From Eubacteriales bacterium (GTDB lineage: Bacteria; Bacillota; Clostridia; Christensenellales; UMGS416): a stretch of 10,146 nucleotides of DNA. This document shows, piece by piece, positions 4,696-10,146 of the stretch (positions within the stretch are counted from its first letter, which is position 1; each line of letters begins with the position of its first letter). The stretch is taken from assembly GCA_028709505.1 (NCBI GenBank), contig JAQVWW010000012.1, forward strand, positions 1 to 10,146, read 5' to 3'. The position numbers and the translations under genes are program-made. The notes beneath the pieces were generated by a model, which made no database searches, was not told the DNA's origin, and worked only from the letters and a program-made list of their open reading frames with translations.

Positions 4696-4917
4696 AGGGT
4701 CAGACGCAATGCGTCAAGAGCCGCCTGCGCGGAGGACGCGGCGTAGCGCAGGGTGCGCAACGGCAGTCGCAGGGCACGGGATTATGGAAAGCAGGCCGAA
4801 GCCTTTGCCAAAGCAAGGATGACGGCAGTTTTTGTATGCGCCTTGGCCGGCACACGGGAAACGTCCGCGTCGCCGGCGCGGCAAAACGACCGTATCAACA
4901 TACAGGAGGACAGACGT
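4696..4917 (+). other. Long GC-rich leader upstream of the DUF2284 gene
   Basis: About 220 bases lie between the candidate promoter and the ATG at 4918. They include a short hairpin GACGC-AAT-GCGTC (about 4702-4714) and several self-complementary GC blocks. I could not match it to a known riboswitch consensus, cobalamin included. The reading frame is open upstream through 4753, but the first strong ribosome site is at 4904-4910, so I read this stretch as untranslated. Confidence 0.35.
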
Positions 4918-5460
4918 ATGCCAGAAGAGAAAGCCGCCCTCATACAAGAGGCGCTGGATTGTGGTTTTTCCCAGGCCGGGGAGCTGAATGTCGCCGCGCT
5001 GGAATTTATGCCCGAGGTGCGGGATATGTGCCGCGCCGATCGCTGCCATCAATACGGCAAGAATTGGCGCTGCCCGCCGGGATGCGGCAGCATTGAGGAG
5101 GCCGCCGCGCGCGCCGCGCAGTATTCCTACGGCATTCTGGTGCAGACCATTGGCCATATGGAGGATAATTTTGATTACGAAACCATGCAGCAGACCGGCG
5201 AAACGCATAAGCAGAACTTTGCCACGCTGGTCGATCGGGTAAAGGAACGCCATCCGGATATGCTGCCCATGGGTGCGGGCACCTGCACGCTGTGCGAAAC
5301 CTGCACGTATCCCGACGCGCCCTGCCGCTATCCCGATAAATCCATCGCGTCGATGGAAGCCTATGGCCTGTGGGTTAGCCGCGTATGTGAGCTTTCGAAC
5401 ATCCCCTACAACAACGGCAAGCTGACCATCACCTATACCAGCTGCTACCTGCTTAAATAA
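4918..5460 (+). CDS. DUF2284 family cysteine-rich, predicted metal-binding protein
   Basis: This 180-residue protein starts at ATG 4918 behind AGGAGGA (4904-4910), seven bases away. That site is much better than anything near the upstream in-frame GTG at 4753. Cysteines come in two clusters. The first is C38, C43, C52 and C56, around NWRCPPGC, the hallmark of DUF2284. The second is C123, C126, C129 and C136 (CTLCETCTYPDAPC), a ferredoxin-like spacing. C157 and C176 follow. Eight cysteines in two groups of four suit two iron-sulfur clusters or metal sites; this is inference. There is no signal peptide or membrane segment, so it is cytoplasmic. The biochemical role of the family is not established. 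It appears to be a single-gene unit with its own leader and a terminal hairpin. Confidence 0.9.
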   Translation: MPEEKAALIQEALDCGFSQAGELNVAALEFMPEVRDMCRADRCHQYGKNWRCPPGCGSIEEAAARAAQYSYGILVQTIGHMEDNFDYETMQQTGETHKQNFATLVDRVKERHPDMLPMGAGTCTLCETCTYPDAPCRYPDKSIASMEAYGLWVSRVCELSNIPYNNGKLTITYTSCYLLK

Positions 5461-5598: not shown

Positions 5599-7044
5599 TC
5601 AAGTCTCGTCCTGCTGCCGCAGCGCCCGATAGACGGCGCAGAGGTTTTCATGGCTGGGATAGTCGTTAACCAGGATGATGTGCGGGTGCGAAATCGGAAG
5701 GTTGGGGACTGTGGTGACGATGATATCGTACACGTCACGGGACGCCTCTTCTAATACGTCGGGGTAAGACGCAACGGTAGGCTGGATGGCGACGCCGTCG
5801 TCGTGGTTGAAGAAGCCTGTCAGCATCTGAGCCAAAAAGGCGCTGTGCTGACGGCCGAAATCGCTGACCACCAGCACTTTTTTAGGGAGAAGACAGCCGT
5901 GAAAAGGCGGCCAGGTCAGGCAGATCCACAGCAATATGTCCTGGATGCAGCACCCCATATCCAGCCCCACGTCGCGGGAAAACTGCGCCAGGTTCTCTTC
6001 TATTAGCGCATAGACGGGCCGGTTATGCATCTGAAAGAGCAGCGAAAAATAATAGACCCTGTCGAACAGCACCGACGTTGCGCCGGGGCGAAATTTGGCG
6101 GTTAAATACATCATCGTGATTACGTTGCGCAGCTTGTGCAACACCTGCTTGCCGGGAGACAGGCCCAGCGTTTGAAAGGTCTGATCCAAAAAGACCTGCG
6201 CGGCGCTCTGCACGCGGCTTTGTTCGTCGTCGTCGTCCCACCCGTTTTGCTTGCGGGCGATAAATTCGTGGATGGCGCACAGGTTTTGCCGCGTGACAGC
6301 GGAGAAATAGACCGATAGCCGGCCAAAGGTTTCATCGTCCATTTGGGCGGCTATCGAATAATCTGACGCGATGGTATAGCCCTGGTTTTCGCGTATCAGC
6401 GATACCAGATAGAATACCGACAAAAACATTGTGCCAATGTCGTCTTCGCGCAGCAGATGGCAGCCGGGCGCCTCCAGGATTTTCTTTACGGTGCCGGCAA
6501 GCAGCTGCATATCGATGTCGGGCTGACAGTCTTTGGGCGGAATACCGCCCAGTTCAATAAGAAACGACGCGAAAAACTGGCGCAGGTATTGTTCGTCGTC
6601 GGCATGGATTTCATAGTTGTTGCCCCGGCGGCAGACCGTCATACCCCGCGGGGACAGCGCGCCGTTGATGCGGGGCAGCAGGCGGTTGAGCGTAGAGCGG
6701 CTGGTAAAAAGCCGCTCCTCGTAATATTCCAGCGGCTTGCGCGGGTGGTACAGCAGCTCTTTGAGCCAGCGCAGCGCCAGGGATTCGTTGAAAATATCCA
6801 GAAACACACTGCCCATCATAGCGATGCTGCAATTGTGTATCCGCACGCCCTGCTTGACGGATACTTCAATATTCAGATAGGAGGCCCAGCGTTTTTTTAA
6901 CGTGGCGATGTCGGCGGTCATCGTTCTTTGGCTGGCGCCGATGGCGTCGGACAGCTGCTGGATGGTGATCCAGTCGTCCTTGAGTATCAGGGACTCGATA
7001 ATTTGCATAATTCGTTGCGACGAAGCGTCGAGTAGTGCTCTCAT
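5599..7044 (-). CDS. Mga/AtxA-type (PRD-containing) transcriptional regulator
   Basis: 481 residues from ATG 7044. An in-frame GTG at 7053 is possible, but GCGGTGA fits as ribosome site for the ATG (spacing about five) and nothing fits the GTG. Residues about 23-76 are an N-terminal HTH (WITIQQLSDAIGASQRTMTADI). Residues about 105-147 hold a second HTH of the Mga type (YEERLFTSRSTLNRLLPRI). Residues about 180-375 are helical and PRD-like, with candidate regulatory histidines H259, H303 and H340 (MHNRPVYALIEENL). Residues about 387-481 resemble a PTS EIIB fold (KKVLVVSDFGRQHSAFLAQML) but lack the phosphorylated Cys. Order and length match Mga/AtxA/RofA-like regulators, which activate surface-protein and virulence genes and can respond to sugar-uptake phosphorylation. 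It is divergent from a surface adhesin, its likely target. A BglG-type antiterminator is less likely because the N-terminus is DNA-binding HTH. Confidence 0.88.
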   Translation of the reverse strand: MRALLDASSQRIMQIIESLILKDDWITIQQLSDAIGASQRTMTADIATLKKRWASYLNIEVSVKQGVRIHNCSIAMMGSVFLDIFNESLALRWLKELLYHPRKPLEYYEERLFTSRSTLNRLLPRINGALSPRGMTVCRRGNNYEIHADDEQYLRQFFASFLIELGGIPPKDCQPDIDMQLLAGTVKKILEAPGCHLLREDDIGTMFLSVFYLVSLIRENQGYTIASDYSIAAQMDDETFGRLSVYFSAVTRQNLCAIHEFIARKQNGWDDDDEQSRVQSAAQVFLDQTFQTLGLSPGKQVLHKLRNVITMMYLTAKFRPGATSVLFDRVYYFSLLFQMHNRPVYALIEENLAQFSRDVGLDMGCCIQDILLWICLTWPPFHGCLLPKKVLVVSDFGRQHSAFLAQMLTGFFNHDDGVAIQPTVASYPDVLEEASRDVYDIIVTTVPNLPISHPHIILVNDYPSHENLCAVYRALRQQDET

Positions 7045-7094
7045 GATGTTCACCGCTTATTAAAAATGTTCGAAAAACAGTTATTTTATCTATT

Positions 7095-7374: not shown

Positions 7375-10146
7375 ATGACCAAAAAAATCAGTCTGTTGCT
7401 CAGCGTATGTTTGCTTTTGCAAATAGTATTGCCGGCCGTCGCGTTGGCAGCCGCCACGCCGAACGACCTGACGGGGAAGACCCAGTATCTGGTGATGCAC
7501 GATACCACCGGTACCTACCCCGCCTATCAGGGAGGACCGTCGTCACTGACTGTAAAAAGGCCCGACGGTACGCCCATCCCGCTGATCGGCAATACGTATT
7601 CGGACGTACCCTCCGGCTCCAGCTTTGAGCTTAACTATGTGTTCCACCTGGAGGACGGCGACGGCATCAGCAACGTGTACGACTATTCAGGCTCCAACTA
7701 CTTTGATATTACGCTGCCCGAAGGCATCACCTTTACGCCGCCCGCCGGCGAGAACGCCAAAGTATACGCCATAGACAAGAGCGTCAGGTGGCATCTGGGC
7801 AACTGGGAATTTATCGGCCCGAACACCGTCCGTGTGCAGCTGACCCCCGAAGCGGCCGAACACCGCAGGATGTGGGGAGAAATCGGTATTCAAGGTACCT
7901 TTGACGAGACGTCCGCCGGCGATGACGACGAGGTCAGCATGCTGCTGGGCACGCAGAACGTTACATTCGTGCGCGTTATTCCGCCGCCGCCCAGCATCAA
8001 TGTGGCAAAGACCGGCGTGTATAACGCCGCCAGCAATACGATAACCTGGACCATAACCGTAGACCCGCCCGAGGGCATATCGCTGGCCGGATACAAGCTG
8101 GAAGATGTGTACTCCGCCAACCAGACCTATAAAGCCGGAACCTTCTACAAAGGCGTCGGCGAAGGCGCTACCAACATCCCCGATGCCAACCTGGACTTGA
8201 CCCAGCTGCGTAAAATTATTTACGAAATCCTTGCGGGCGCCACCGGGCAGCAGGTATTTACATATCAGACGACGCCGGACTCCTTCGCCAACGAGACGGG
8301 CATGGGAGGCGCTGCCTACGAATACTCACGCTTTACCAACACGGCCACCCTCAAGCTGGGTGACGATCCGGCGGCCGACCCGGTGAAGGCCGACGTCGAC
8401 ATCAACTGGACGTCCAAGAGCGGCTCGCTGGTCACCACCACCGACGGCTCTGTTGTCATGAAGTGGGAAGTGTCGGTGATCGTGCCTCCGGGTTCGGCCA
8501 TCACCGGCACCTGCATTACCGATACGCTGCCGGCGGGGCTTAAGCTTATCGAGGCTTCGCCGCGCCTGCCGCAGGTCAGCTTTGCCGGCGGCACGGCGCA
8601 GAACGTGTCCAGCGGCACCGGCGCGGGCACCTATACCTACACTTATACCGGCAGCACCGCCTCCAGCCAGCTGGTCTACCGCTTTCCGGCGGTGGACGGC
8701 GTGGACGGTAAGCTTTCCGGCACGGCCAAATTTGTGTATTTTACCGAAGTGACCGACCGCACCGCGTACTTAAACAACAACGGTTCGGTGAACTTCACCA
8801 ACAGCGCCCAGTTAAACTGGGCCGAAATGCCCGGCACCACGCCCCCAAAGGATACGGCGTCGGCCGGCATCACCGGCGGCGGGCTTATCAGTAAGAGCGG
8901 TGGCAGCACCGTAAACTACGTCCACCCGGGCATCATCCAGTGGACGGTCACGGTAAACCGCAATAAAATTGCGATGTCCGCCGTTACCATTCTCGACAGC
9001 GTTCCTGTGGGCCAGGAGCTGCTCATCGGTAGCGACAACCCGCTGACCATACAGGGGCCGGGCGCGCCGGTTGTCATCACGTCGGTGGAGCCGCCGCTGC
9101 CCACGGCCCTTTCGTCGGAAGACGCCTTCACCCGCAAATTCGCTTACGTACTGGGCGATATCACCGATACGTACACGCTGCGGTACTACACGCGGATTAT
9201 CGACACCAACCCCGACGCCAATAACGACGCCAGCGGCCTGGATACGCTATATGTCAACGGCCAGGTAAGTTTTCAAAACGGAGTCACGCTTAGGCGCGGC
9301 ACGCAGGATCTGCCGATAGAGGGGACGAAGACATACAACAGCCAGGTGATTCAAAAGACGGTGCTGGAGCATTATAACCACAACACGCACGTGGCCAAGT
9401 GGTCCATCGTCGTCAACCGCAACCGGCTGCCGCTGACCACCGCGTCGGTGCGCGACGTGCTGCCCGCCGGCATGGTTCTGCTCATCGACGACGACCACGC
9501 CTTCGCGGTGACCAAGCGCGGCGTAGCCACGCCGGTGGCCACGGCTCCCACCACCGGCGTAAACGGATCCACTGAATTTGTCTACGCCTTTGGCAGCATC
9601 AACGACGAGCATACCATTACGTTCTATACGCAGATGACCGATACGGCGCTACTGGGCCAATGGGACGGCGAGCACGACTTCACCAACCGCGCGATACTGG
9701 AAGCCGATCAGTTGCCCCTCGATATCGAGAGCACGGCCAAGACGCAGGTAATCAACCCCATCGTCTCCAAACGGGCGGCATACACCGCCGGGGCCGACTA
9801 CATCCAGTGGTCGGTGGTCATCAACGCCGGCCAGGTGCCGCTGTGTGAAGCCGAAGTGGAAGACCGGCTGGACACCGGCCTGGTGCTGGATAGCGCGTCG
9901 CTGAAGCTGTACGAAGTGCCGGTGGCCGCCGACGGCACTGTGGGCCAAGCCAGCGCTGGTACGTTGGTCACCACCGGCTATACGGTAGGAGAGCCTACCG
10001 CTGCCAATAAAAACACGCTAAGCGTGCAGCTGCCCGAAGGCAGCCGGTCGGCCTACCGGTTGGAGTTTGCCACGTTCATCGTCGTCAACAACCTGGACTT
10101 TACCAACGAGGTCACGCTGACCGGCACCACGCAAAGCCCCGGCGGT
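7375..10146 (+). CDS. Large secreted adhesin with tandem isopeptide-type beta-sandwich repeats (3' end missing)
   Basis: Open from ATG 7375 to the right edge: 924 codons, no stop. The start is set by AGAGGAG (7358-7364) and a signal peptide, with KK, a hydrophobic core and VALA at 22-25 before the likely cleavage. Residues about 27-205 resemble the N-terminal Ig-like domain of Cna/Sdr-type adhesins (FDITLPEGITF; TVRVQLTPE). Five repeats follow from about 208, 343, 503, 658 and 792. Each begins with a Lys strand (VAKTG, TSKSG, ISKSG, IQKTV, VSKRA), then W-x-V/I-x-V/I, an Asp motif (ITDTLPAG, ILDSVPVG, VRDVLPAG), and closes with F-x-N (FTNTATL, FTNSAQL, FQNGVTL, FTNRAIL, FTNEVTL). The Lys, Asp and Asn positions suit CnaA-type isopeptide bonds. 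It is probably cell-wall-anchored; a sorting signal would lie outside the window. The ligand is unknown. Its likely regulator is divergent on the left. Confidence 0.9.
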   Translation, partial: MTKKISLLLSVCLLLQIVLPAVALAAATPNDLTGKTQYLVMHDTTGTYPAYQGGPSSLTVKRPDGTPIPLIGNTYSDVPSGSSFELNYVFHLEDGDGISNVYDYSGSNYFDITLPEGITFTPPAGENAKVYAIDKSVRWHLGNWEFIGPNTVRVQLTPEAAEHRRMWGEIGIQGTFDETSAGDDDEVSMLLGTQNVTFVRVIPPPPSINVAKTGVYNAASNTITWTITVDPPEGISLAGYKLEDVYSANQTYKAGTFYKGVGEGATNIPDANLDLTQLRKIIYEILAGATGQQVFTYQTTPDSFANETGMGGAAYEYSRFTNTATLKLGDDPAADPVKADVDINWTSKSGSLVTTTDGSVVMKWEVSVIVPPGSAITGTCITDTLPAGLKLIEASPRLPQVSFAGGTAQNVSSGTGAGTYTYTYTGSTASSQLVYRFPAVDGVDGKLSGTAKFVYFTEVTDRTAYLNNNGSVNFTNSAQLNWAEMPGTTPPKDTASAGITGGGLISKSGGSTVNYVHPGIIQWTVTVNRNKIAMSAVTILDSVPVGQELLIGSDNPLTIQGPGAPVVITSVEPPLPTALSSEDAFTRKFAYVLGDITDTYTLRYYTRIIDTNPDANNDASGLDTLYVNGQVSFQNGVTLRRGTQDLPIEGTKTYNSQVIQKTVLEHYNHNTHVAKWSIVVNRNRLPLTTASVRDVLPAGMVLLIDDDHAFAVTKRGVATPVATAPTTGVNGSTEFVYAFGSINDEHTITFYTQMTDTALLGQWDGEHDFTNRAILEADQLPLDIESTAKTQVINPIVSKRAAYTAGADYIQWSVVINAGQVPLCEAEVEDRLDTGLVLDSASLKLYEVPVAADGTVGQASAGTLVTTGYTVGEPTAANKNTLSVQLPEGSRSAYRLEFATFIVVNNLDFTNEVTLTGTTQSPGG

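Follow-up and report, generated by a model that had tools for sequence, protein, structure and literature searches.

A putative sortase-anchored adhesin of a Eubacteriales bacterium with five tandem CnaA-type domains, each carrying a conserved Lys-Asp-Asn triad

The 10,146 nt stretch of DNA analysed here (the window; contig JAQVWW010000012.1 of Eubacteriales bacterium assembly GCA_028709505.1) ends within a forward-strand reading frame for a repeat-containing adhesin, spanning 7375-10146 (924 residues) and still open where the contig stops, at 10146. The gene as recovered represents roughly the N-terminal two thirds of the protein, the C-terminal part lying beyond the contig. The locus raises the question of whether each of its five tandem domains forms a covalent Lys-Asn cross-link, and what kind of surface protein they would build. 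The gene very probably encodes a sortase-anchored adhesin resembling the microbial surface components recognising adhesive matrix molecules (MSCRAMMs), with five CnaA domains forming Lys-Asn isopeptide bonds and a C-terminus composed of SpaA domains and an LPXTG-type signal. The visible part, with domain boundaries placed by hand, is arranged as follows:

7375..7452, + strand: signal peptide, about residues 1-26 (by reading: the start is hydrophobic and the end rich in Ala)
7456..7983, + strand: N1-like (Big_8-like) domain, residues 28-203, without a Lys-Asp-Asn triad
7984..8409, + strand: CnaA-type domain 1, residues 204-345, with K212, D244 and N322
8410..8874, + strand: CnaA-type domain 2, residues 346-500, with K348, D383 and N476
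8875..9345, + strand: CnaA-type domain 3, residues 501-657, with K507, D541 and N635
9346..9759, + strand: CnaA-type domain 4, residues 658-795, with K661, D694 and N771
9760..10146, + strand: CnaA-type domain 5, residues 796-924, truncated by the contig end, with K799, D830 and N911

An earlier note, made from the sequence alone, had placed a Lys-Asp-Asn triad at matching spacing in each of the five domains, and reading of the translation confirmed all 15 residues at the positions listed above. From domain 1 to domain 5, Lys and Asp are separated by 32, 35, 34, 33 and 31 residues, within the 31-35 proposed, and Lys and Asn by 110, 128, 128, 110 and 112, as given there. Every triad Asn closes an F-x-N motif, of which the protein contains six, the one at 304 not being part of the triad set. 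Under spacing limits derived from the homologues (Lys to Asp 29-39, Lys to Asn 100-146, with the Asn in F-x-N), the window protein holds five non-overlapping triads; when its composition was shuffled 20,000 times, 10,195 shuffles contained none, 7,796 one, 1,818 two, 184 three and 7 four, and five were never reached. As these limits were chosen after the data had been seen, conservation provides the better test.

Conservation was counted, gaps excluded, over the aligned window protein and its 26 homologues, a set of mean pairwise identity 45% that includes near-duplicates (seven pairs over 90% identical). The triad Lys is kept in 25/25, 25/25, 27/27, 26/26 and 26/26 sequences in domains 1 to 5 respectively, the Asp in 25/25, 25/25, 27/27, 23/26 (the other three having Glu) and 26/26, and the Asn in 25/25, 27/27, 25/26 (the other having Asp), 26/26 and 26/26. 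The five triad Lys are the top five of the protein's 30 Lys by conservation, an outcome with odds of 1 in 142,506 under random ranking. Several Asn outside the triads are as conserved as those within them, so that conservation of Asn alone would not pick out the triads. Even in the two distant homologues (P0026 and P0027, 25% and 29% identical in the alignment) the triads are kept wherever they are covered. That all five domains keep a complete triad, when 24 of the 26 homologues are only 37-55% identical to the window protein, supports the notion of selection for cross-linking every domain. A sixth conserved Lys, K844 (9904-9906), lies in an S-x-K-L-Y motif of domain 5 and is present in 96% of 25 homologues.

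The arrangement of these residues was followed in an AlphaFold2 model built on the 27-row alignment (predicted local distance difference test score 88.1, predicted template modelling score 0.59), in which residues 5-15, in the signal-peptide region, form a low-confidence helix. When strands of at least three residues were tabulated with a one-residue tolerance, every domain had its Lys on strand 1 and its Asp on strand 3. Domains 1-4 carry their Asn on the penultimate strand, whereas that of domain 5 falls at the margin of the last visible strand, the remainder being beyond the contig end. Passages of a 2025 survey of isopeptide domains assign the triad residues of CnaA to the same three strands, first, third and penultimate (PMC12617251). 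Structure prediction, which the earlier note had suggested as a check on Lys-Asn distance, agrees with CnaA topology at the level of strand placement, domain 5 being cut by the contig. The best structural matches include CnaA-type domains of ACE, CNA, Cnm, SpaD, EbpB and PrgB, with domain 1 matching the N2 domains of ACE and Cnm as well as LrpA and PilA. A Foldseek search with the full model ranked axoneme proteins and integrins highest, at template modelling scores of about 0.1-0.2; these are generic beta-sandwich chains and were not used.

The predicted fold, the placement of the triads on strands, their conservation and the structural matches all point to CnaA-type domains, and from them we infer an Asp-assisted Lys-Asn bond, as the earlier note had envisaged. 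In the proposed mechanism, the strand-1 Lys would attack the amide group in the side chain of the penultimate-strand Asn, aided by the buried strand-3 Asp, with ammonia being released and the intramolecular isopeptide bond arising upon folding. Such bonds would link both sheets of each domain, and the shaft would consequently resist pulling and proteolysis. Internal cross-links of this sort are a familiar means of reinforcing adhesins.

The same residues could in principle be kept for folding, as a salt bridge or turn, in ordinary Ig-like or DUF11 stalk repeats lacking any covalent bond. A DUF11 match below threshold in domain 2 and a TIGR01451 B_ant_repeat match just above its cut-off (26 vs 24 bits) point in this direction, but the strand placement of the triads is that of bond-forming CnaA domains, and a DUF11 (CLIPPER) domain has itself been solved with a Lys-Asn bond, according to the survey passages compared (PMC12617251), making a purely non-covalent stalk very unlikely. 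As a family assignment DUF11 was rejected, scoring 9.9 bits over the whole protein and 15.3 in domain 2 against a cut-off of 24.6. Cna_B was likewise rejected: neither Cna_B nor SpaA was matched in the 924 residues, and the acid is an Asp on strand 3 rather than a Glu. In the same survey passages, a Lys-Asn bond with Asp is typical of CnaA, with Lys-Asp bonds and a Glu catalyst being typical of CnaB (PMC12617251). The description of the repeats in the earlier note as neither plain DUF11 nor plain Cna_B was literally right, although the domains do have a known family, Collagen_bind (PF05737), which was matched in domains 3, 4 and 5 at 38.8, 34.9 and 38.8 bits respectively (cut-off 27.5).

Domains 1 and 2 of the window copy had no Collagen_bind match above cut-off in the Pfam scan, domain 2 giving only DUF11, CBM_56 and Big_8 below threshold. 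When the pieces comprising the N-terminal domain with domain 1 (N1+D1), and domain 2 (D2), from five homologous loci were scanned beside those of the window at E<=0.1, Collagen_bind was found in 3/6 N1+D1 sequences (best 3.6e-5) and in 1/6 D2 sequences (8.9e-5). The idea that domains 1 and 2 constitute a new isopeptide family was dropped on finding Collagen_bind in some of these homologous pieces. Profile-profile comparison, after removal of rows covering less than 60% of a domain, joined all ten domain pairs, domains 1 and 5 at 65% and the other nine at 97% or above; for instance, the domain 1 profile matched those of domains 2-4 at 97-98%, and the domain 2 profile matched domains 3 and 4 at 99%. 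Asp and Asn were in register in 10/10 of these alignments and Lys in 7/10, the Lys of three pairs falling outside the local profile alignment. Judged by sequence profiles, domains 1 and 2 are divergent relatives of domains 3-5 and of the Collagen_bind family. The two size classes of domain that the earlier note had distinguished dissolve when the family is considered: across the window protein and its homologues Lys-Asn spacing ranges from 103 to 146 in domain 3 and from 109 to 128 in domain 2, and with such variation the size differences are read as loop lengths.

A single-sequence search of Protein Data Bank sequences returned one match, PsaR at E 0.71, which is irrelevant. The profile of the whole alignment mostly matched SpaA/CnaB structures, through the C-termini of the homologues, and also RspB (1.8e-14), the Cnm structure 7LGR (8.8e-4) and the Clostridium perfringens pilin 8gsx (0.007). 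Profiles of single pieces yielded little: that of domain 3 matched 7LGR (1.6e-4), followed by 8gsx, RspB and 9vo4 at 0.025-0.037; those of N1+D1 and domain 5 had no structure matches, that of domain 2 gave a glucokinase (0.081) and the DUF11 structure 9IFR (0.72), and that of domain 4 an unrelated protein (0.52).

The substitutions seen among the homologues bear on whether every domain is cross-linked. The position of D694 in domain 4 is Glu in P0010, P0012 and P0019 (3/25 homologues covering it), and that of N635 in domain 3 is Asp in P0019 (1/25), these CnaA domains being otherwise intact. Such changes would favour a protein with the CnaA fold and conserved triads in which only some of the five domains are bonded in the mature form, for example because bonding is slow or takes place only beside neighbouring domains. 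This is improbable for the window protein, as all 15 of its triad residues are intact and near-invariant in the homologues, and PrgB has a bond in each of its four tandem domains (PMC10588982). The natural Asp-to-Glu and Asn-to-Asp changes also offer a ready comparison of bond chemistry: should bonds still form in the substituted domains, a Glu catalyst and Lys-Asp bonds would be open to CnaA domains as well. That nature has tried other chemistries in the CnaA domains of this adhesin family is a tentative suggestion; compared with the survey passages, these changes may be a minor novelty.

Cross-linking is not expected to extend over the whole of the visible protein. Conservation of Lys in the N-terminal domain (about 28-203) nowhere exceeds 32% among the window protein and its 26 homologues, and the profile of this domain failed to match any of the five CnaA domains (0.4-9%). 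Big_8 fell just under its cut-off in the window protein (22.6 vs 22.9 bits, best stretch 108-180) and was found in 5/6 N1+D1 sequences at E<=0.1 (best 1.8e-12). For residues 28-345, the top structural rows are the N1-N2 pairs of RspB, ACE, Cnm and CNA, with a superposition at a root-mean-square deviation of about 22 that ties with other proteins. The N-terminal domain and domain 1 appear similar to the N1-N2 head found in CNA-type adhesins, a reading strengthened by the detection of Big_8 and Collagen_bind in the homologous N1+D1 pieces, and domain 1 is probably part of a binding head rather than of the stalk. After secretion, the N1-like domain and domain 1 would form the distal binding head and domains 2-5 the upper stalk. 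The claim of the earlier note that the whole stalk is covalently locked therefore went too far: the N-terminal domain lacks a conserved Lys, domain 1 probably belongs to the head and the C-terminal part lies beyond the contig.

CNA-type adhesins such as CNA, ACE, Cnm and RspB have one N1-N2 pair each. These members of PF05737 (N2-type) share with the window adhesin the fold, the triad and its spacing, and probably an N-terminal N1 followed by N2; for example, the triad of Cnm, K177-D210-N291 in 7LGR, has spacings of 33 and 114 in the survey passages (PMC12617251). Unlike them, the window adhesin has five consecutive CnaA domains, of which domains 1 and 2 are below Pfam detection in this copy, and any collagen binding is putative. 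A precedent for the tandem arrangement is PrgB of Enterococcus faecalis, in which four tandem Ig-like domains (8beg) each have an experimentally established Lys-Asn bond with Asp (PMC10588982). PrgB differs in having a polymer adhesin domain and CSA/CSC-type domains, and the figure legend in that paper includes no SpaA (PMC10588982). Among pilins, domain 5 resembles D2 of SpaD (K187/D224/N299) and domain 4 resembles EbpB; SpaD, however, has a single CnaA domain flanked by two CnaB domains and is polymerised into pili. In antigen I/II proteins, whose stalk has a different architecture, the CnaA-like domains are C-terminal. These domains (SspB/C123, SpaP, BspA and AspA) appeared as structural matches with Lys-Asp-Asn triads but belong to other Pfam families, AgI_II_C2 and Antigen_C being listed with triads in Table 1 of the survey (PMC12617251).

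The direct family of the window gene consists of 26 proteins (P0002-P0027) of the form Big_8 - Collagen_bind(n) - SpaA(n) - LPXTG, from which the window copy, beyond lacking its 3' end, shows no other essential difference. In the four homologues scanned, SpaA (CnaB) domains follow towards the C-terminus, and most of the family have an LPXTG-type anchor; the part of the window protein beyond the contig would likewise comprise SpaA (CnaB) domains, together with a sorting signal of LPXTG type. A search of its own genome found the remainder of the gene on no other contig. According to passages of the 2025 survey, tandem isopeptide domains often co-occur with Big_8 and an LPXTG motif (PMC12617251); the window gene follows this published pattern, and tandem cross-linked CnaA domains are already known from PrgB.

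Matches of single domains to the shaft and basal pilins SpaD, EbpB, LrpA and PilA, the adjoining regulator of the AcpB/EbpR/MafR family described below, and the naming of some homologues as 'SpaA isopeptide-forming pilin-related' in their sources would all suit a sortase-assembled pilin or pilus-tip subunit. This seems unlikely beside a single-chain fibrillar adhesin, since 22 of the 26 homologues are single chains of 1,278-1,553 aa, the four scanned have a multi-domain build, most carry an anchor of their own, and no second pilin was present among the ten neighbouring open reading frames (ORFs) scanned in four homologous loci (3, 3, 2 and 2 in L007-L010), a result that covers nearby genes only. 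At two of these loci, L008 of Sporobacter termitidis and L009 of Desulfosporosinus hippei, the adhesin gene has a divergent sortase gene as its immediate neighbour. No sortase was found among the ORFs scanned at the other two (L007 and L010), nor in the window's own genome, which is 76% complete; one is present in 7/7 genomes from its family or genus.

Upstream of the adhesin gene lies one gene of potential relevance to its expression:

5599..7053, - strand: AcpB/EbpR/MafR-family (Mga-type) regulator (NF053736, 168.1 bits vs a cut-off of 130; Pfam Mga)

From its divergent position, this regulator may possibly control the adhesin. The family member EbpR is an activator of the ebpABC pilus operon in Enterococcus faecalis (PMC2824692). 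Neither gene is widespread: at E 0.001 the adhesin was matched in 0/60 other relatives, one of them of the same genus, and the regulator in none of 30. Across the class, adhesin relatives occur in 10/390 other genomes (11/391 with its own), at 26-33% identity in the best stretch. The neighbouring DUF2284 gene is matched in 9/31 relatives, own genome counted. The distribution of adhesin and regulator is patchy, with horizontal acquisition or a misbinned contig being possible explanations.

The rest of the window gave minor observations. Scans of its full length with Rfam and for tRNA genes returned 0 matches each; between about 1400 and 2900 there are only short overlapping ORFs, with no Rfam (gathering) or tRNA match. 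The DUF2284 gene (4753-5460, + strand) encodes a predicted metal-binding protein, its best relative, 62% identical, coming from another family of the order. A truncated regulator (1-1176, - strand) has an AraC-type helix-turn-helix above cut-off, with an N-terminal HTH_17 and a PAS-like stretch below theirs; by eye, a second stretch following the AraC domain (LFPIP...) repeats the PAS-like one, an unusual order.
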